Source: Methanococcoides sp. LMO-2
GTDB taxonomy: Archaea; Halobacteriota; Methanosarcinia; Methanosarcinales; Methanosarcinaceae
DNA length: 64,000 nucleotides
Assembly: GCF_038432375.1 (NCBI RefSeq)
Contig: NZ_JBCAUS010000006.1
Span: 62,001 to 126,000, forward strand
Reading direction: 5' to 3'
A program made the position numbers and the translations under genes. Under the pieces are notes generated by a model. It was not told the origin of the DNA. It searched no databases and saw nothing but the letters and a program-made list of their open reading frames with translations. This document shows, one piece after another, positions 10,419-21,628 of this stretch (position 1 is the first letter of the stretch; the number at the start of each line of letters is the position of its first letter).

Positions 10419-12824
10419 ATGACCAAGCTAACTACGGGAAAGATCTCCATCGAAGATCTGGAAAACGTTCAGATCAACATTAGCAACATTGTGGGAGCTA
10501 TCGAAAAGGAAATAGAAGAAAAAGGTGAAGGAGGACCAACACCAAAACCCGGAATAGAAGAGTTGAGGGACTGGGACTTCAAACTGCTCGATCGGTACGA
10601 ACCTGTGTACACACCGACATCCGACCAATGCAGTTACTGTACGTTCGGTCCATGTGATCTGACAGGTAACAAAGAGGGAGCTTGTGGCATCAATCTGGAA
10701 GGACAGACTTCGCGAGAGTTCCTGCTTAGCACGATAATTGGAGCTGCAGCCCACTCAGCGCATGGACGTCACCTCCTCCATTATTTGATAGAAAAATTCG
10801 GCAGGGACCATCCCATAGAGGTTGGACCATCCAACATCAAAGCACCTAACACCCAGACCGTCACCGGGCACAAACCAGAGACGATCGGGGATCTTGAAGA
10901 GGTACTGCAGTATGTAGAAGAACAACTGACCCAACTTATGGCAACCATCCACATGGGCCAGGAAGGCGAATCTATCGATTTCGAGTCAAAAGCCCTGCAT
11001 GCAGGGATGCTCGACCACGTGGGTATGGAAGTATCTGATATCGCACAGATCTCATGCCTGGAATTCCCAAAAAGCGATCCTGAAACACCTCTCGCAGAGA
11101 TAGGGATGGGGTGTATCGATTCCACAAAACCTGTACTTATCGTCATCGGGCATAACATGGCAGGTGTTTCTAATATAATCGATTACATGGAAGAGCATGA
11201 CCTTCTTGATGAAATAGAACTTGGAGGACTGTGCTGTACAGCCCTTGATATGACCCGCTATAAGACAGAGGGCGGAAATGCTCCAAAGGCAAAGATAGTC
11301 AGTACACTTGCCAAACAGCTGAAGATGATACGTTCAGGTGTCCCGGATGCCATTGTTGTTGATGAGCAGTGCGTGCGTGCTGATGTCCTCAGAGAGGCAC
11401 AGAAGCTCATGATACCTGTGATCACCACCAATGCGAAAATAATGTACGGCCTTCCAAACAGGTCAAATGACAATGTGGATGACATCCTTGATGACCTGAC
11501 CAGTGGAAAGGAGCCAGGTGCCCTCATGCTTGACTTTGACAAGCTTGGAGAACTGGCACCACGCCTTGTCCAAAAGATGGCAGTCATACGCGACGAAAAA
11601 GGCATAAGGGGACTCCCGACCGAAGAGGAGTTCAAAGAACTTACGTCGAGATGTGTTCACTGTCTGGCATGTGAACTTGCCTGCCCGATCAACCTGCCCA
11701 TAAGCGATGCAATGACCGCTGCAGAGAATGGAGACCTGAACCCATTTGAGGCACTCCGCGACAAATGTATAGGATGTGGTAGATGCGATCATTCATGCCC
11801 GAAGGACATTCCTGTACTGAATGTAATAGAGAAGGCGGCACAGAAGGTCATACGGGAAGAGATAGGAAAGGTAAGGGTAGGAAGAGGTCAGATCAGTGAC
11901 CCCGAGATCCGGGAAGAGGGTGTCAACCTTGTACTTGGAACTACACCTGGCATTATTGCAATAGTAGGATGCTCGAACTATCCGGACGGGACCAAGGATG
12001 TGTACGATATAGCAGATGAGATGCTTAAGAGGAATTACATTGTTCTGGTCTCAGGATGTTCGGGAATGGATGTTGGTATGTACAAGGATGAGGAAGGTCA
12101 GACACTCTATGAGAAGTATCCGGCAAAGTTCCTCAAAGGCAATCTGATCAACATGGGTTCCTGTGTGTCCAACTCCCATATCACGGCAACTGCGATCAAA
12201 GTTGCAGCAATATTTGCACAGAGGGACATCACCGGCAACTACGAAGAAATCGCAGACTACATTCTGAACCGTGTGGGTGCGGTCGGAATTGCCTGGGGCG
12301 CCTATTCGCAGAAAGCCCTGTCTATAGGAACAGGATGCAACAGACTGGGAATACCTGTAGTGCTCGGACCCCACGGCTCGAAGTTCCGCAGGGCGATAAT
12401 CGGAAAACCATATGATAAGGACAAATGGAAGGTATACGATGCACGTAATGGCGAAGTGATGCCAATACCACCTGCACCTGAATACCTTATCACCACGGCG
12501 GAGACCATTGAAGAACTGATGCCAATGCTTGCCAAGAGCTGCATACGTCCGAGTGACAACAATATGGGAAGGATGATCAAGCTCACCCATTACATTGAGC
12601 TCAGCCAGAAATATCTTGGAATAATGCCCGATGACTGGCACACTTTTGTCAGGACTGAGACAGACCTGCCTCTTGCAAAGCGCGAGGAACTTCTCAATAT
12701 ACTTGAGAAGGAACATGGATGGGAGATTGACTGGGACAAGAAGAAGATCCTCTCAGGACCGTCCATGAAACTTGATGTTTCAGCCCAGCCGACCAATCTG
12801 AAAAGACTTTGTAAGGAAGCATGA
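10419..12824 (+). CDS. cdhA: CODH/acetyl-CoA decarbonylase alpha subunit, solitary CdhA
   Basis: At 801 residues this is a full-length CdhA, the Ni-Fe CO dehydrogenase subunit. Visible ligands fit the family: His245 (GHNMAGV), Cys273, Cys318 (DEQCVR), Cys518, Cys547 and Cys582 for the C-cluster; two ferredoxin motifs at Cys412-422 and Cys450-460; B-cluster Cys71, Cys74, Cys79 and Cys89. The canonical family has two more cysteines here (Cys73 and Cys77 in M. barkeri numbering), which bind the D-cluster shared between two subunits. Here both are serine (Ser68, Ser72). No cdhB, C, D or E follows, unlike the usual operon. It may correspond to the solitary CdhA3 reported in Methanosarcina acetivorans to affect cdh expression. 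Confidence 0.93.
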
Positions 12825-12991
12825 TATCCGGCCTGGTATCTTTGGTCCAGTCACAGAGAATATCCAGTGAACCACAAACTCGGGTCCAAAGGACTTAGAG
12901 CCAAAACGGCCAACTGTAGTTGCAAAAATGATTCAAAAGCAAAGGGAACACTTCCAGGAGCGAGGTACCAATAAACTATAGTATATAATAA

Positions 12992-13029
12992 AAAAATGGG
13001 CATTTCATCCGAATGTTTTGCCCATTTTT
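12992..13029. terminator. bidirectional terminator
   Basis: AAAAATGGGCA (12992-13002) and TGCCCATTTTT (13019-13029) form an exact 11-bp stem. A-tracts and T-tracts on its ends can serve cdhA on the plus strand and the CMD-family gene at 13038 on the minus strand. Confidence 0.7.
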
Positions 13030-13037
13030 AAGTTACT

Positions 13038-13400
13038 TTATTTGAGAAGTTTCAGTGCATCCCTGCATGCAGCTACTGCAGGAGCTCCGGATGTTATGGA
13101 GATCACTTCCAGCGTTTCCATAATCTCTTCTTTGGTGGCACCATTTTGAAGAGCACTCTTCATTTGAACCACAGTACACCTTTCACATTGTTTAGATGCA
13201 ACGACGGCAAGTGCCATTAGGATCTTGTATTTTGCAGGCAAGGCACCATCTGATAGGATCTTCTGGTTGCAACGATTATATTTCCTTAGGAAATGTGGAT
13301 CCAGCTCTCCAAGGGTCTCAAGAATATGAGGTGTGAAACCCAGTTTATCACTCATGCTATCCAGCAATTCTTCATGTTCAAGTTCTTCGTGTTCAGACAT
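13038..13400 (-). CDS. carboxymuconolactone decarboxylase (AhpD-like) family protein
   Basis: The 120-residue helical protein carries the CMD/AhpD core: [20 protein letters not shown], then [19 protein letters not shown] with a CxxC, then the [13 protein letters not shown] helix. AhpD-type proteins use the CxxC pair as a thiol-disulfide or peroxidatic centre and form trimers or hexamers. GGGGGT precedes ATG 13400. It ends at a terminator shared with cdhA. A role in redox defence of this strict anaerobe is likely but unproven. Confidence 0.85.
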
Positions 13401-13721
13401 TATATACCCCCATAAATTATTACATAAAAACTCGGTTTGAATGTTATTTATTTTTTTCTACAGATGAGGAAAACTTGTCGAAAAGTTTCATCATTTCAAT
13501 CATCCCCACCATTCAACATAACTATTGATCAAGAATCCCACATACACCGGACAATGCACCCGAGCAGCCCATAATTGTTCTTTTTAAAATCATTTAAACC
13601 TGCCAAGATCTTTTAGTCATCTCTGTCCTGGGAAGTATACGAAATCAGAAAATGCAAAGTGCCAATAAAAACAGGAAATAACTTTATAGAAATTGCATCT
13701 TAATATTATTGGAGGTACCTG
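13401..13721. other. divergent promoter region
   Basis: About 320 bp of AT-rich DNA between two divergent genes. CTTTATAG at 13683-13690 is a likely TATA box for the membrane protein at 13722, with GGAGGT as its ribosome binding site. TTTTTATGTAAT near 13425 on the minus strand may serve the AhpD-like gene. Nothing else was recognised. Confidence 0.4.
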
Positions 13722-14300
13722 ATGAAACGTCGGACGACAGCAATATCCTTTGTACTTTTTGTTTCTGCAATAATAGTCTTCATACTTTTACAGGAAAAGG
13801 ATATGCCATTAAGGATGGTCGACAGGGCAACAGGACTATTTGCTTATCTGTTCATCTTTTTAGCAATACTATCTTCTGAATACATGATGCAGATGATGAA
13901 AATTTTTGGAACAGGATTTATCACCATACACCATCTTCTCGCCAGAACAGGGATTTCCCTCATGGTCATACATCCCATTGCATTCGCATTTGAAGAAAAA
14001 AGTATCTCAGTATTTTTACCGGTATTATATCCACTAAAGGATTTTCTGGAACTTGCAGGCAGACCGGCATTTTACCTTATATTAATAGCAGTAGCAGCGG
14101 CCGTATACAGGAAGCATATTATCAAAAAATGGAAGAACTTCCATTATTTGAACTACCTTGCTTTCATAATGATCTTCATACACGCATGGTTAATTGGAAC
14201 AGATCTTCAATATACAATAATGAAAATACTCTGGATATCCATGGCGCTGATAGTTTTCGGAGTTTTTGTTCATAAACATCTGATCAACTCAAGATCATAA
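13722..14300 (+). CDS. ferric-reductase-like transmembrane protein
   Basis: The 192-residue protein has about six membrane helices. Histidines placed as heme ligands occur in helix 3 (FITIHHLLARTG), helix 4 (LMVIHPIAF) and the later pair FHYLNYLAFIMIFIHAWLIG. This resembles the ferric reductase/MsrQ-like membrane domain that carries electrons across the membrane through two b hemes. There is no flavin or NAD domain, so a partner must supply electrons. GGAGGT gives a good start at 13722. The convergent neighbour at 14551 is an F420/Fe-S oxidoreductase, a possible but unproven partner. Confidence 0.75.
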   Translation: MKRRTTAISFVLFVSAIIVFILLQEKDMPLRMVDRATGLFAYLFIFLAILSSEYMMQMMKIFGTGFITIHHLLARTGISLMVIHPIAFAFEEKSISVFLPVLYPLKDFLELAGRPAFYLILIAVAAAVYRKHIIKKWKNFHYLNYLAFIMIFIHAWLIGTDLQYTIMKILWISMALIVFGVFVHKHLINSRS

Positions 14301-14550
14301 ATCGAAAGAGGTTTTACTTCCTTTATCAGAAAACAGTTTCTTAAAAGGCAATTCAAGTTGAAACCTCTTCATTGAGGATTATTACCCCACCTGATATTAA
14401 TCCAACATCTACAGACATCCATATATTTACTCCATATATTCACTGGACCTTCAAAAGCTATTGAAAGTTGCCCTTTTTACTGGTTGCTACTCCACCTATA
14501 GACCCACCATTTTTGTTACTGATTTGTAGGTAGAGCAACACTACAAAAGA

Positions 14551-15711
14551 TCATTTCTTTTGCCTGCGGTTCAAACCATACATCTGCACCTTCTTCATCT
14601 TCGCAAGATTGACAGCACGGTCCATTTCCTTCTTCTCAAGGCGCCTTGCATCGATGTAACCATTGTCGATCGCCTCACAGAGGATCTCCTAACCGATGGA
14701 CGAGCGTGCCAGAACAGTGCTCCAGCCCTGCGGCGTTCCCACGCCACCAAAGGAGATGTCCGAGTTCTCTGCAGCCATATCGGTACAGAACTTGCAGGAT
14801 GTAGACCTGTATTGGTCCAGTTCAGAAAGATCATAGCTCTCCAGGCCATCGGCCATACCAAATTCAAAGACACCTTTACGGATCTTCATGGACTCAATAT
14901 CATTGAGGTCCATCCCTTTTGCTTGCACGAATTCCCTGATACCTTCATGCTCGAAACTATCCATACAGAAAAGCCCGAACTTCAGGACCTTTGCTCTGAG
15001 GAACAGGTGAAGGAACCCATATGGACTTGTCTGCATCTTGTGAACAGCATCAATATTGCAACTGGGCCCCACAAATGCAATGCTCCTCATACCCTGCTTG
15101 ATGGCACTCATCAATGGCTCCATGGTCATGCTGTGGGAATAGATGCTTCCTGCTGACTCAAGGACCTCATCTGCGGTCGTTGCAATAAAAGGTTCAGGCC
15201 TCCAGGGATTACCTTCCGACTTCCTTGTAACGATGGCACAATCCAGAAGCCCCTCCTCAAGCCCGTATGCAAGCAGAGAAGTAACTACCCCACCGTCCTG
15301 GCCCTTAGAGTCGGGCATCCCAGACCTGGCCGCATAGCCGAACCTGAGCTTGCCCACAAGGTCCTCTTCCCTTGTAACGGTCCTTGGACACTGGTTGTAG
15401 CAGACACCACAGGCAGTGCACTTATCGATCAGTTTGGGCTGGCTGTTCACAAAGGCTATGGACTCACAGGAAGAGACGCAGGCACCGCACAATGTGCAGA
15501 TACCAAGGTTTATAATCTCCTTCTTGAGCTTCCCAAAGGATATCCTCTCCTTCTCACCAATGTTGCGCTTCAGGCGTATTACGCTCTTTTCCAGCTGATC
15601 GAACTTGTTCTTGCATTCAGCAGAACAAAAATAGTACTTCTTTCCGCCATAATCCGTAACATAGGAGCTGCCCTCACTTACATGAGCTTTACAGATAGGG
15701 TCTGTCATCAT
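14551..15711 (-). CDS. YHS / ferredoxin / FrhB-like F420 oxidoreductase with in-frame UAG (probable pyrrolysine)
   Basis: The protein starts at ATG 15711 (GGTGG upstream). It has a YHS metal-binding domain (DPICKAHV, then YYFCSAECKNKF), two [4Fe-4S] motifs (CTLCGACVSSC and CTACGVCYNQC) and the coenzyme F420 hydrogenase/dehydrogenase beta-subunit domain. At codon 341 the frame meets TAG (14691-14689). It then continues for 45 codons without a stop, EILCEAIDNGYIDARRLEKK and onward, to TGA at 14553-14551. The extension reads like the usual C-terminus of the family (GE-EIL-EAI-NGYI). UAG decoding as pyrrolysine gives 386 residues. Ending at the UAG would remove this tail. It probably oxidises or reduces F420 with a ferredoxin-like partner. 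Confidence 0.8.
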
Positions 15712-15922: not shown

Positions 15923-18900
15923 TTACTTCTTTCTCATGAAACCGAAGTAGATCAATCCCGCAGATAACAGGACCAACACCGCACCTATTACATCAGAACC
16001 TGAGAAAGACGATGATGATGAAGACTCATCAGGAGTATTCTCACGAGTCATTTCATAGCCTTCAACGTAGTTGTCCTGTGAAGCAGCAGTTGCCTGATCG
16101 GTCGTAGTTCCATAACCTGTAGCATCAGTGCTTGTGGTTGTGCTATTTACCACGTTTGCCGATGGAGTGTTCGAGCTGGTCTTCCTGCTGGAGCTACTGG
16201 TTTCAGGATAACGATGTGTTGCATCCTGCATCAGTTTGTTGTACTCATCAATAGTTGCCTGGTCGACAACACCTGGTACGGACATTATACCCTGCACATA
16301 CTCATCAAGCAGAGCATTTCCACAGGTATGATGACAGCATGTTACACCATTCTCGACAACTGATTCAATATACTCCCTAACCAGAGTCTGGATTACCTCA
16401 TCGGATGCGTCCCAGTAATCCTTTCTTGTTGTCTCAAGCATGCGGGCTAGCTGGGACTGATATTGATAGGGGTTCTCTGCGTAGAACTCGTCCAGACCAA
16501 GATCATACTTATCCAGAACATATGCCTCATACATCATGTTCCAGTCATCGTCCGTAACCATGTCCGGGCATGTAGCATCCCATCCCCACATGTACTCCGT
16601 GAATTTCATGAATTCCCTTGCACCGGCATAATCGAATTCCATCATTCCAGTCATCCATGAAGGATTGAGATACCTGGCACGCAATTCATTCCTGAAAGCC
16701 TCTTCAAGTGTTGTGTACTGAGGATTGTCAACATCCTTGAAGTCGGCTATATACATATCAGGAGTTTCCCCTGTAAGGGATCTGACAGCAAGTCCAAGAC
16801 CTCCGAGATACGAGTAGAAATCATCGTTGTCGATGAGTCCGTATAGGTTCGAGGTATCACTGTGCATAGCCACATCAACATCTTCGAGGTTCATTTTGAA
16901 CACATCTTCGTAGTTTTCTCCCCATGAATCTGCTCCATAGATATTGGACATTCTGGAGATGTAGAGATCCGCCATCTTGCTTTCATCATCCCATGTGTCA
17001 CTGGCAGCAACTGTTTCCGAAATTCCCGTACCATAAGAGCCAGGTGGTTCACTGAAGATCCTTGACCTGGAGATGTATTCTGCAGTCTCATTATCATAGC
17101 CCATGGCTATAAGTTCAGCCTCCATCTCAAGAGAATTCCTTCTGACGAAGTTGAAGTCTTCGCTCTCATTAAGGTCTGCAACTATACGGACAGCTTCATC
17201 CATCCATTCAAGCTGAAGTGGGAATGTGTCGCGGTATAGACCTGACGGAAGGACGAGTACATCAATCCTTGGATGTGTCATATTCTCTTCTGGGATCACA
17301 TTGAAACCTGTGATCCTTCCACTGCTCCTTTCAAGCTCTACACCTATAAGAGCGTAGATCTGCGCTTCCATGAGTCCTTTGTGACGCATTGTTTCAACTG
17401 ACCACAGGATAAAGGCCTGTTTGTCTGGATATACACCATTTACTGCATAGTAATCTGCTACCCACTGATCAATAAGGACTTTTCCAAGAGCCTCTGTTTC
17501 AGCATCAGGGAATTTTCTCTGGTCAAAACTGTAGAAGTTCCTTCCGGTTGGCAATGCTTCAGGATTGCGTATTGGGTCGTTTCCAGGTCCAGGTTCAATA
17601 TACTCTGCATTGAGTGCACGCAATGTCTGGTCGATCTCACGAGTGGTCTGCGCCAGCTGACCTGAATAATACAATGCCTGATCGAGATCTGCAGTAACAT
17701 TGGCATCAGTAAGATTAAGTACCTCAAGCTGAGCTGCTGACACATTTGTTCCGTTGATCAAAGTGGCATTCAGAAGATCAGCTGCACATGTATTAGCTGC
17801 ATTCTCCCAATCCTCCTCGTCTCCGGTATCTTTGGGGATCACACTATAGATGTGATCAATGAAATCACTACGAAGCATCGACTTGACCATTGATACAAGT
17901 TTCTCGTTCTCAGGAGCAACACCAAAGATGTGGAGTCCGTAAGGCATGAGTGTTGTCTGCAGTTTATGCAGGTAGTCATGGAGAACTGAATCAAGGAATG
18001 TTTCGAATTCCTCGTCAGTCATGGCATTCAATTCATCACATGTAACATTGAGGTCGTTCACCAGACATAGCGAGTCATATAATTCAATGGTACTGTTACG
18101 GTAGAGTGCCATCTTTGCAGTATCATTGATACTCTTTGCATCTTCGTAATTGTGTATCTTCTCATGCATTATTGACAAGTTACCATAAAGTCCTGCTTCC
18201 ACTATCGGTGGTGTCAGGTGGTCTATGATAACTGCATTGCCTCTACGCTTTGCCTGTGTACCTTCTCCGACATTATCCATGATGTAAGGATAGATCACAG
18301 GAGTTTCAGCAACCATTATTGAAGGATAGTCATATCTCCAGAGTCCAACTTCCTTTCCAGGCAACCATTCCTGTGTACCATGAGTACCGAAATGGATCAT
18401 TGCATCTGCATCATAGACATTGTTGATCCAGAAGTATGTTGCAAGATACTGGTGTGTTGGCGGAAGTTCCTTGTCATGATAGAGGATACTCTCATCTGAA
18501 AGAGTACCTCTGGTAGGCTGTGGTATGAAATTGACATTACCAAGCTGTACTGTAGGGATCACAAAGTTCCCATCATACACCATTATATCGCCAGGGGCAG
18601 TTCCCCATTTACTTTCAACATCCTGTCTTACAGATTCAGGAAGAGTGTTATACCAGGCGAGATAATCCTCCACAGGAACAAGGGTCACATTGCCGGAATT
18701 GACAACCTTCTCAAGTTCTCCGGGAGCCCAGGAACCAACGTTCCTGCTTTCAATGAACAGGTCGATGAACTCACTGGCATTTGGAATTGTACCATTACCA
18801 ATATCGTAACCATCTGCCCTCATTTGTTCAAGAAGCAATGTGAAACTTGAACCGATATCCAGATAGCTGGCACCAATGTTGTTCTTACCACCTTCATGGT

Positions 18901-21490
18901 TGTAGTATATGATGCTTACCTTTTTGTCAGAATTGTCTGTTTTACCCAACTCTGCCCATGCGATGGCCCTGTCACTGATCCACTCGACCTGCTCCATTAT
19001 TGGTTCGTAATATGACTGGCCGGTCATCGGATCTTTAACAATACCAGCCACCCATATGTAATCCGTACATCCTTCTATCTCAGGGTATGCAACCTGATAA
19101 TAGAGAGATGTTGGGCTTAATCCATGTGTGCTATTGTAGTATTCTGACGGTGACTGGTAATAATCATAGATTCCCTTTACTACCGGAATGTTATATCCGG
19201 TGAGATACTCCTGACCTTCAACCAGATCGAAATTTATGTAGAATCCTTTCAGGGAGATCATTGAATCAACTAATACAACTTCATCCTTCGAGTAATATTC
19301 AGCCGCCCTGTTTCCATCGTCATCATCCATAAAAGCAAGACCAGTTGCATAGATCACATTACAACCCTTTGATTCAATGTATCTTATCAGAGCATCGTCC
19401 GCTGTAAAAGCGAGAGTATTAGACTGAAGTGCATAATTCACAATTCCTATAGTTGGTGCATTTGAATCGTAAACATGTCCACCATCTATCCGATTTGAAT
19501 ACCATTCAAGATAATCTGTACTATCCTCAAAAATCCTTGGAAATGCATCCGGATGATAAATACCATTTTTTGGAATAGGAGGTTCGGTTACCGGCCCATA
19601 TTCAATATAGGCATCTTCAAAATTTGATCCGATGTAGCGAATCCATCTTTCCATATTGACAATTCCACTGTTCGTGAAATAATCGACCATGACGCTATGA
19701 GGCAGACTATCCATATCAATTGTTCCGACTCCTGTAGCTAATTCACCCATTCCAAAGACACCTATTTCTGTACCACTATTTTGGGCATCAATTAGAGCAT
19801 CCTTGAAAAGAGGGATCTGGTCAGCACCTACCATGTAGAGTATAATTACATCCTGATCGGAAAAATCACTGACACTAGTAGCTTCTTCCCCATTCATCAG
19901 TGTAACATTGAAACGTTCTGCTACAACTTCCCTATCAGTAAGAACCTGATTAAGATAGTACAGATTTGTTTCTGCATTTAGTATGAAAGTTATATTCACT
20001 TTTGGAAGCAACACCTGCGGTTCATCTATTGTTTCATGTTCCCATACATCCGCAAACTGCTGACCCATGAACATGAGCATATTCTCCATGTTTGTTTGGC
20101 CACCCTGAACCCAGTATCTTTCAATATCGGTATATTCGTCCGAGTATAGGTCAAGGTTAGACGGGGAAACGTTTGAAGCTAAATCATAACATATAACCTT
20201 CGAACCAAGCTCTTTGCTAACTTTGATACTTGTTGTCCAGTTTGCAATTGAGTTTTCATCCTGAGATTCAAGGAAAATCAACCCAAATTCTGAAAAGTCA
20301 TAATCATCAGGCACAGTATCATTTTTTGTGAAAATAGTTATATTCAATTCTGTCGAGATGTTAGAATCTTGTGCGGCATTGATCAGTGAAACTTCATTAT
20401 AATCCGTACCAAGAACAAATAAAATTTCATTGTAATCAACATTTACATTATCCCAGAAATTGATTATTGGATGATTACTGTATTCTGTTGCAAGGTAAAT
20501 TAGAAGGTCTTCTGCGCTATCAATCCCCTCAACTGTTACATCCATGTTGCTGTAATAGTTGTATACCTGGTCATCAGCACTACCATTTGAAATATGATCA
20601 AAATAGGAAGGAGTACTTGTATTCGCCTTCACGCTTAACAAAGAGGTACCATTATCATGGACTGCTTGCAGAGTCTCGTTTATGCTAAATCCGGTTGTAT
20701 CACTTGTTGTATTGTAAACTTTAGAACCAACCATCTCAAATAAAATTACATCCTGAGATGCTAAAAGACCATTATCTGCAGCTTCAACCAATTGATCACT
20801 TGCATACCAGGTTGCATTATATGCAGGAATGGCATTATATTCTATAAATTGACTATGATCGTTTGTCAACTTTGCAGTCTCTAAAGCATCACTCTCTTGA
20901 TAATAAACGTAAGTAATTCTCAGAGGTGTCAATAATCTTGTAATTGTAGGATCATTGCCATAATCCTTTGCAAGACATATGAGGAGATCTTCTGCATTTC
21001 CAAGACCTTCACCTTCAGTACCCATATTGCTATAATAGTTATATACTGCATCATCAGCACTGCCATTAGAGATATGGTCAAAATAGGAAGGAGTACTTGT
21101 ACTAGCCTTCACGCTTAACAAAGAAGTACCATTGTCATGGGCTGCTTGCAGAGTCTCATTTATGTTCAGTCCAGTTGTATCACTTACTGTGTTGTAGACT
21201 TTTGAACCGACCATCTCAAATAAAATTACATCCTGAGATGATAAAAAACCATTATCTGCAGCCTCAATCAATTGATCACTTGCATACCAGCTTTCATTGA
21301 ATGCCGGAATTGCAGTGTAACCTATAAATTGCCGGTACTCATTAGTAAGTTCTGCCATTTCCAGAGCATCACTTTCTTCGTAGTACACATAAGTAATGTT
21401 AACCATTGGTTCTTCAGCTGATACCACTGGCGAAGCTGCCAGCAAAATCAAAACACTTAAAAGTAATGTTTGACGTATTATATTTCGCAT
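15923..21490 (-). CDS. secreted, membrane-anchored CobN/HmuS-like chelatase
   Basis: A 1855-residue protein. It starts at ATG 21490 (GGTGG upstream) with a signal peptide (LLLSVLILLAASPVVSAEE) and ends in a Ser-rich linker, a single membrane helix and the charged tail FMRKK. So the body lies outside the cell with a C-terminal anchor. N-terminal domains repeat: two 160-residue copies are nearly identical and two more are distant. The large CobN/BchH-type chelatase region follows, with MIHFGTHGTQEWLPGKEVGL and, near the C-terminus, TCCHHTCGNALLDEY. Cytoplasmic CobN inserts cobalt into corrinoids; secreted relatives (HmuS) act on heme. Upstream ExbB-like, DUF2149 and DUF2162 genes form one operon. 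The likely substrate is a tetrapyrrole outside the cell. Confidence 0.88.
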   Translation of the reverse strand: MRNIIRQTLLLSVLILLAASPVVSAEEPMVNITYVYYEESDALEMAELTNEYRQFIGYTAIPAFNESWYASDQLIEAADNGFLSSQDVILFEMVGSKVYNTVSDTTGLNINETLQAAHDNGTSLLSVKASTSTPSYFDHISNGSADDAVYNYYSNMGTEGEGLGNAEDLLICLAKDYGNDPTITRLLTPLRITYVYYQESDALETAKLTNDHSQFIEYNAIPAYNATWYASDQLVEAADNGLLASQDVILFEMVGSKVYNTTSDTTGFSINETLQAVHDNGTSLLSVKANTSTPSYFDHISNGSADDQVYNYYSNMDVTVEGIDSAEDLLIYLATEYSNHPIINFWDNVNVDYNEILFVLGTDYNEVSLINAAQDSNISTELNITIFTKNDTVPDDYDFSEFGLIFLESQDENSIANWTTSIKVSKELGSKVICYDLASNVSPSNLDLYSDEYTDIERYWVQGGQTNMENMLMFMGQQFADVWEHETIDEPQVLLPKVNITFILNAETNLYYLNQVLTDREVVAERFNVTLMNGEEATSVSDFSDQDVIILYMVGADQIPLFKDALIDAQNSGTEIGVFGMGELATGVGTIDMDSLPHSVMVDYFTNSGIVNMERWIRYIGSNFEDAYIEYGPVTEPPIPKNGIYHPDAFPRIFEDSTDYLEWYSNRIDGGHVYDSNAPTIGIVNYALQSNTLAFTADDALIRYIESKGCNVIYATGLAFMDDDDGNRAAEYYSKDEVVLVDSMISLKGFYINFDLVEGQEYLTGYNIPVVKGIYDYYQSPSEYYNSTHGLSPTSLYYQVAYPEIEGCTDYIWVAGIVKDPMTGQSYYEPIMEQVEWISDRAIAWAELGKTDNSDKKVSIIYYNHEGGKNNIGASYLDIGSSFTLLLEQMRADGYDIGNGTIPNASEFIDLFIESRNVGSWAPGELEKVVNSGNVTLVPVEDYLAWYNTLPESVRQDVESKWGTAPGDIMVYDGNFVIPTVQLGNVNFIPQPTRGTLSDESILYHDKELPPTHQYLATYFWINNVYDADAMIHFGTHGTQEWLPGKEVGLWRYDYPSIMVAETPVIYPYIMDNVGEGTQAKRRGNAVIIDHLTPPIVEAGLYGNLSIMHEKIHNYEDAKSINDTAKMALYRNSTIELYDSLCLVNDLNVTCDELNAMTDEEFETFLDSVLHDYLHKLQTTLMPYGLHIFGVAPENEKLVSMVKSMLRSDFIDHIYSVIPKDTGDEEDWENAANTCAADLLNATLINGTNVSAAQLEVLNLTDANVTADLDQALYYSGQLAQTTREIDQTLRALNAEYIEPGPGNDPIRNPEALPTGRNFYSFDQRKFPDAETEALGKVLIDQWVADYYAVNGVYPDKQAFILWSVETMRHKGLMEAQIYALIGVELERSSGRITGFNVIPEENMTHPRIDVLVLPSGLYRDTFPLQLEWMDEAVRIVADLNESEDFNFVRRNSLEMEAELIAMGYDNETAEYISRSRIFSEPPGSYGTGISETVAASDTWDDESKMADLYISRMSNIYGADSWGENYEDVFKMNLEDVDVAMHSDTSNLYGLIDNDDFYSYLGGLGLAVRSLTGETPDMYIADFKDVDNPQYTTLEEAFRNELRARYLNPSWMTGMMEFDYAGAREFMKFTEYMWGWDATCPDMVTDDDWNMMYEAYVLDKYDLGLDEFYAENPYQYQSQLARMLETTRKDYWDASDEVIQTLVREYIESVVENGVTCCHHTCGNALLDEYVQGIMSVPGVVDQATIDEYNKLMQDATHRYPETSSSSRKTSSNTPSANVVNSTTTSTDATGYGTTTDQATAASQDNYVEGYEMTRENTPDESSSSSSFSGSDVIGAVLVLLSAGLIYFGFMRKK
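20438..21397 (-). repeat. 480-bp tandem duplication in the chelatase gene
   Basis: Two head-to-tail copies, 21397-20918 and 20917-20438, each encode 160 residues starting ITYVYY. They share long identical nucleotide runs (for example TCAAAATAGGAAGGAGTACT in both), so the duplication is recent or kept alike by conversion. Confidence 0.85.
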
Positions 21491-21514
21491 ATTATCCACC
21501 CGATAATGTGTAAG

Positions 21515-21551
21515 ACACCCCGGAACTTTGCTTGGCGGCTGTCCGGGGTGT
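21515..21551 (-). promoter_or_regulatory. GC-rich hairpin before the chelatase start
   Basis: ACACCCCGGA (21515-21524) and TCCGGGGTGT (21542-21551) are an exact 10-bp stem with a 17-nt loop. It lies in the 138-bp gap between DUF2149 and the chelatase and ends 25 bp before its start codon. It may be an attenuator, processing site or mRNA stabiliser that sets the chelatase level apart from the upstream membrane genes. It lacks a B12-box and is not a recognisable riboswitch. Confidence 0.5.
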
Positions 21552-21628
21552 ATCCAACTTTCATTATCCACACATTTTCATTTCATTCTAATTTTCTTAA
21601 TTTTCAGTACCACACACTCTTGAAAGGA

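Follow-up and report, generated by a model that had tools for sequence, protein, structure and literature searches.

An in-frame TAG probably read as pyrrolysine in an FrhB-like F420 oxidoreductase gene of Methanococcoides sp. LMO-2

A comparable case of pyrrolysine (Pyl), the rare 22nd amino acid, in a protein that is not a methylamine methyltransferase is Thg1, the tRNA-His guanylyltransferase of Methanosarcina acetivorans, in which Pyl was observed physically and is not essential for activity, and which was at the time of the review the only physically observed Pyl protein outside the methylamine methyltransferases (PMC2933860). Scarcity of TAG as a stop is a known feature of Pyl archaea (PMC3941956). 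The gene described here lies in a 64,000-nucleotide stretch of the genome of the methanogenic archaeon Methanococcoides sp. LMO-2 (GCF_038432375.1, contig NZ_JBCAUS010000006.1, positions 62,001 to 126,000), called the window below, and encodes an FrhB-like protein whose frame holds a TAG at codon 341. This TAG is very probably a sense codon read as pyrrolysine, a tolerated substitution that would leave a full-length protein of 386 amino acids. In a 2025 Science paper, Kivenson et al. reportedly described archaea in which every TAG codon is read as Pyl, with over 1800 Pyl proteins predicted; the work is said to have used proteomics and to have included Methanococcoides.

In the window sequence, the minus-strand frame from 15711 to 14551 starts with ATG ATG ACA GAC, contains a single in-frame TAG, and ends in TGA. 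The initial annotation had placed the TAG at 14691-14689 (codon 341) with 45 more codons before the TGA, and these coordinates and counts are exact. The features of the gene are as follows.

14551..15711, minus strand: read-through coding sequence of a YHS, ferredoxin and FrhB-like F420 oxidoreductase, 386 amino acids with TAG at residue 341 (from the frame, orthologues and Pfam)
14689..14691, minus strand: in-frame TAG, codon 341, predicted pyrrolysine; Tyr (TAT/TAC) in other Methanosarcinaceae (frame, orthologues, selection)
14554..14688, minus strand: C-terminal extension of 45 codons, residues 342-386, which completes one helix of the FrhB fold and supplies a strand and the long C-terminal helix (homology, purifying selection, model, structural match)
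14551..14553, minus strand: TGA, the likely true terminator, also TGA in 6/6 TAG-bearing orthologues (frame, orthologues)
15595..15708, minus strand: YHS domain, residues 2-39 (Pfam)
15379..15528, minus strand: 2[4Fe-4S] ferredoxin-like segment with Cys 72/75/78/82 and 98/101/104/108, all invariant (Pfam, homologues)
15112..15336, minus strand: FrhB_FdhB_N domain, residues 126-200 (Pfam)
14632..15087, minus strand: FrhB_FdhB_C domain, residues 209-360, with the TAG inside it and invariant Cys 218, 249, 306 and 309 (Pfam, homologues)

Both FrhB_FdhB_N and FrhB_FdhB_C score above their gathering scores, and the FrhB_FdhB_C match (209-360, E 5e-40) runs straight through codon 341. The extension is present in 25/25 close orthologues examined, and among 35 homologues the residues G340 and E342, which flank the site, and A347, K373 and Y378, which follow it, are invariant; the extension is therefore the normal C-terminus of the family. 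The early description of this segment as an ordinary C-terminus of F420 dehydrogenase beta subunits is thus borne out by the alignment with FrhB-like proteins and orthologues of related strains that had been proposed as a check. From family membership, the protein is a predicted F420 oxidoreductase that would exchange electrons with ferredoxin-like centers; the F420:ferredoxin-type activity, any partner and a function for the YHS domain are likewise expectations drawn from the family.

The same-genus comparison comprised ten other Methanococcoides genomes. Five of them have TAG at codon 341 (91-96% protein identity, the nearest relative being at 96%), four have a sense codon there, which is TAT (Tyr) in all four (75-77% identity), and one is without a close FrhB-like orthologue. 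Other members of the Methanosarcinaceae encode Tyr at this site by TAT or TAC. Over 92 loci, into which some species enter twice, once per collection, the site is TAG in 7/7 at identities of at least 90% and Tyr in 60/60 at 60-90%, while below 60% it is Leu in 22, Met in two and Asn in one. Because the same codon is TAG in five other genomes of the genus, its occurrence at this position is not a matter of chance; an assembly error or a private mutation is ruled out by its recurrence in six assemblies.

The six TAG-bearing genes retain the extension intact, with no indel or new stop downstream of the TAG. Summed over the 15 TAG-TAG pairs, which are related and non-independent, the ratio of nonsynonymous to synonymous substitution rates (dN/dS) is 0.046 for codons 1-340, 0.032 for codons 209-340 and 0.032 for codons 342-385, at a synonymous divergence (dS) of ~0.72-0.79, with ~0.74 synonymous substitutions per site after the TAG. 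Since purifying selection after the TAG matches that before it, the downstream sequence is almost certainly translated and functional. The codon itself is unchanged in 6/6 species, as against 39/139 fourfold-degenerate sites, and residue 341 has therefore probably been under some constraint since its fixation.

The machinery for such decoding is encoded in the same genome. A check for pylTSBCD had been proposed, and tRNA-Pyl, pylS, pylB, pylC and pylD were all found together on contig C6:200001-220000 (piece L075), at the following positions of that piece.

10684-10755: tRNA-Pyl, anticodon CTA
10865-12100: pylS
12051-13292: pylB, assigned from sequence and gene order
13165-14247: pylC, assigned from sequence and gene order
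14251-15039: pylD, assigned from sequence and gene order

PylS scores above its curated cut-off in 11/11 Methanococcoides genomes, and archaeal release factor 1 (aRF1) is encoded by one full-length copy in this genome, plus weaker homologues. A structure resembling the pyrrolysine insertion sequence (PYLIS) was not seen in the 105 nucleotides at and after the TAG, which fold no better than shuffled sequences (z +0.96); PYLIS was once proposed and, according to a review, is not required for UAG decoding (PMC8211752). With the pyl genes present and the extension found in the orthologues, the interpretation of the codon as Pyl-decoding is supported and its read-through strongly so, Pyl being the residue predicted at 341.

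The read-through protein was also modeled with AlphaFold, with Lys standing in for Pyl. The mean predicted local distance difference test (pLDDT) score is 66, and the block 341-350 reaches 88. Residue 341 lies at the start of a helix (338-349), after which come a strand (353-357) and then a long helix (360-383). Structural matches to the model, with Z ~30 over residues 115-386, are 8RIU_B, 9R51_B, 4CI0_C and 6QGR_B; at the position of residue 341, the solved proteins aligned to it carry Lys (8RIU_B), Asp (FrhB, 3ZFS) or Glu (Fsr 7NP8 and 9R51). The [4Fe-4S] cysteines described for FrhB (PMC3591093) correspond to C218, C249, C306 and C309, which align with them and are invariant in the 35 homologues, so residue 341 is not a cluster ligand. 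The C-terminal helix of FrhB has its N-terminal end near the F420 access channel (PMC3591093). According to the model, a stop at 340 would delete the C-terminal helix, and for that reason a 340-residue product is unlikely to be functional.

The use of TAG was followed over the whole genome (2.31 Mb, 14 contigs; counts cover 2.267/2.311 Mb), with a mechanically chosen set of 1445 non-overlapping open reading frames (ORFs) of at least 200 amino acids. TAG terminates 29/1445 of them (2.0%), and it makes up 17% of the TAA, TAG and TGA trinucleotides in about half of the genome. The frame stays open for at least 40 codons past the stop in 79% of TAG-ended ORFs vs. 19-21% of those ended by TAA or TGA (Fisher p ~2e-11). 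About a dozen conserved non-methyltransferase genes are interrupted by TAG, along with approximately eight methylamine methyltransferases with an in-frame TAG, assigned from protein sequence. Interrupted genes include those for NnrD (NAD(P)H-hydrate epimerase/dehydratase), IorA, PycA, a fumarase/aspartase-type lyase, an aldehyde dehydrogenase, a CcmF-like protein, a methyltransferase, a glycosyltransferase and several sensor kinases. A Pfam scan of eight of these genes matched families in 8/8, and for NnrD, PycA, the lyase, the aldehyde dehydrogenase and the CcmF-like protein the TAG clearly falls inside a domain. A PAS-rich sensor kinase (contig C3:13886 onward) comes to 1454 amino acids when read with two in-frame TAG codons. 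In a HypF-like gene (C2:85139-87412) and a sugar-kinase-like gene (C3:63246-64145), a TAA or TGA comes directly after the TAG and would serve as a back-up stop should TAG mean Pyl.

The history of the TAG was followed across the genus for four genes. In PycA (contig C2:916936-918426), an in-frame TAG within the Biotin_carb_C domain is found in the same six species as in the FrhB-like gene, with Ile or Val in the remaining species. IorA (contig C2:433363-435243) has TAG here vs. Trp in relatives, and the IorA of another Methanococcoides species (G005 C3:392271-394151) has a separate TAG at a different position vs. Gln in relatives, which points to independent gains in two species of the genus. 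The NnrD TAG is confined to the present genome, with Glu or Lys in relatives. Most of the traced replacements are one base change from TAG. This is how the genes should look if TAG can serve as a sense codon and Pyl drifts into tolerant positions, and the FrhB-like gene fits the pattern. Since TAG is rare as a stop, interrupts ordinary genes and arises from different sense codons in different species, it seems to be nearly a general pyrrolysine codon in Methanococcoides. The early remark that Pyl in a redox enzyme would be unusual holds in part: the TAG is real and lies outside the methyltransferases, but it is not isolated, as many ordinary genes carry one, which makes a redox-enzyme Pyl less exceptional.

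According to the favored explanation, tRNA-Pyl (CUA), charged by pyrrolysyl-tRNA synthetase (PylRS), would read UAG 341 as pyrrolysine with no special RNA signal needed, and translation would run on for 45 codons to the TGA to yield a 386-residue F420 oxidoreductase of the FrhB family that carries a YHS domain at its N-terminus and two ferredoxin-type [4Fe-4S] sites. The codon would have arisen when, in the ancestor of a single Methanococcoides clade, one transversion turned an ancestral Tyr codon (TAY, i.e., TAT or TAC) into TAG. The change may have been tolerated for two reasons: TAG is barely used as a stop in this lineage and is widely decoded as Pyl, and residue 341 is a variable position at a helix start, not a cluster ligand. 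The best reading is that the Tyr-to-Pyl change was fixed in this clade as a tolerated, presumably nearly neutral, substitution that brought no new chemistry.

Several observations weigh against this explanation. Tyr at site 341 in all other Methanosarcinaceae sampled indicates a position that is not wholly unconstrained, and the mean confidence of the AlphaFold model is low. The pylB gene has a TAG near its usual end, with the frame open for 42 more codons into pylC; a TAG at the same position in Methanosarcina mazei, M. acetivorans and Methanococcoides burtonii is treated as a real stop (PMC2933860). A few further ORFs also have TAG as their stop, with little or no extension after it. TAG may thus still terminate some genes here, its meaning then being mixed, and because of pylB and these few ORFs, partial termination at codon 341 is possible.

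The rival that survives best draws on this last point and proposes two products, with UAG both terminating (340 amino acids) and being read as Pyl (386 amino acids), so that their ratio would follow the supply of pyrrolysine or charged tRNA-Pyl and tie activity to growth on methylamines. UAG may be stop or sense in Pyl archaea (PMC2933860), and the pylB of this genome offers a TAG at a usual gene end; even so, the proposal is unlikely, if clearly the strongest of the four. In the model, a cut at 340 strips part of a helix, one strand and the long C-terminal helix from a single fold, and it drops E342, A347, K373 and Y378, all invariant in the 35 homologues, which makes a functional short form improbable. 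The lack of a structured element after the TAG (z +0.96) and the strong avoidance of TAG as a terminator in this genome also speak against it.

A second rival holds that Pyl341 was selected for its own chemistry, an electrophilic imine that would give the clade a new binding, redox or regulatory property. The constancy of TAG in six species vs. the few unchanged fourfold-degenerate sites is in its favor, but the average codon of the gene is similarly constrained, and in the unrelated PycA gene the TAG is just as well conserved. The residue at the site also differs among family members (Y, L, N, M, K, D and E) and is not among the cluster-ligand cysteines. That the residue has been put to use, its reactive imine or the pyrrolysine supply tuning an F420/ferredoxin oxidoreductase whose activity is tied to methylamine growth, is unlikely; if true, it would give pyrrolysine a selected role in redox metabolism, outside the methyltransferases. 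A catalytic Pyl, judged by position, is not favored, given the seven different residues that relatives carry there.

The initial annotation had offered a recent nonsense change with an early end as the alternative. The ORF does end at 340 under translation table 11, and the site is a sense codon in four orthologues from the genus, but a TAG common to six species that are ~0.7 synonymous substitutions per site apart, and a downstream region with dN/dS ~0.03 and no indel or new stop, in a pattern repeated genome-wide, leave very little room for a gene that ends at codon 340 with a decaying extension. Decay after a nonsense mutation is rejected on the dN/dS downstream of the TAG. Least credible of all is the reading of TAG by a near-cognate tRNA inserting an ordinary residue such as Tyr or Gln, for which it can be said that sequence alone does not identify the inserted residue, but against which stand a dedicated tRNA-Pyl (CUA) with a full pyl gene set and the canonical TAG-bearing methylamine methyltransferases of this genome, assigned from protein sequence.

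Among the neighboring genes, no partner subunit for the FrhB-like protein was seen, nor a close same-strand neighbor suggesting an operon. On the opposite strand, ~2 kb past where the FrhB-like gene ends, lies the gene for a CO dehydrogenase alpha-like protein of 801 amino acids (window 10419-12824, plus strand; Prismane family with ferredoxin motifs); elsewhere, some FrhB paralogues cluster with CO dehydrogenase (CODH) genes (PMC9012536). At 15923-21571 of the window (minus strand), an 1882-residue surface-type protein is encoded whose C-terminus consists of a Ser-rich stretch, then a hydrophobic helix and FMRKK, resembling archaeal sorting-signal tails.

The FrhB-like gene would add a well-supported pyrrolysine protein outside methylamine metabolism, which appears to be a further Pyl protein and not a new kind. 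Passages of two earlier computational Pyl surveys (PMC3639795, PMC1242214) do not name it. Together with PycA, IorA, NnrD and others, it suggests that TAG is nearly an ordinary sense codon in Methanococcoides, arising by point mutation in various genes and species. Standard-code annotation truncates such genes or labels them pseudogenes. The set of TAG-bearing genes offers a clean test between neutral drift of Pyl into proteins and its recruitment for function.

Compared with known systems, the genome resembles the archaeal "Pyl code" in that TAG rarely serves as a stop and many ordinary genes carry it in-frame; a few TAG-ended genes here, e.g., pylB, may depart from a code in which all TAG means Pyl. 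The same pyl system decodes the in-frame TAG of the methylamine methyltransferases MtmB, MtbB and MttB, where Pyl sits in the active site at a conserved position (PMC2933860), whereas in the FrhB-like protein it would replace Tyr at a family-variable site. Unlike Thg1, where Pyl was physically observed, the present case is an F420 oxidoreductase with a TAG common to six species and a Pyl predicted from sequence. The protein shares the FrhB fold with FrhB of the F420-reducing hydrogenase (3ZFS/4CI0, 6QGR; residues 115-386, Z ~30), and both the FrhB fold and an N-terminal ferredoxin domain with the zeta subunit of the F420-reducing CODH of Ca. Ethanoperedens (8RIU; PMC11493965). To these it adds an N-terminal YHS domain, and the equivalent of its residue 341 is Asp in FrhB and Lys in 8RIU_B.
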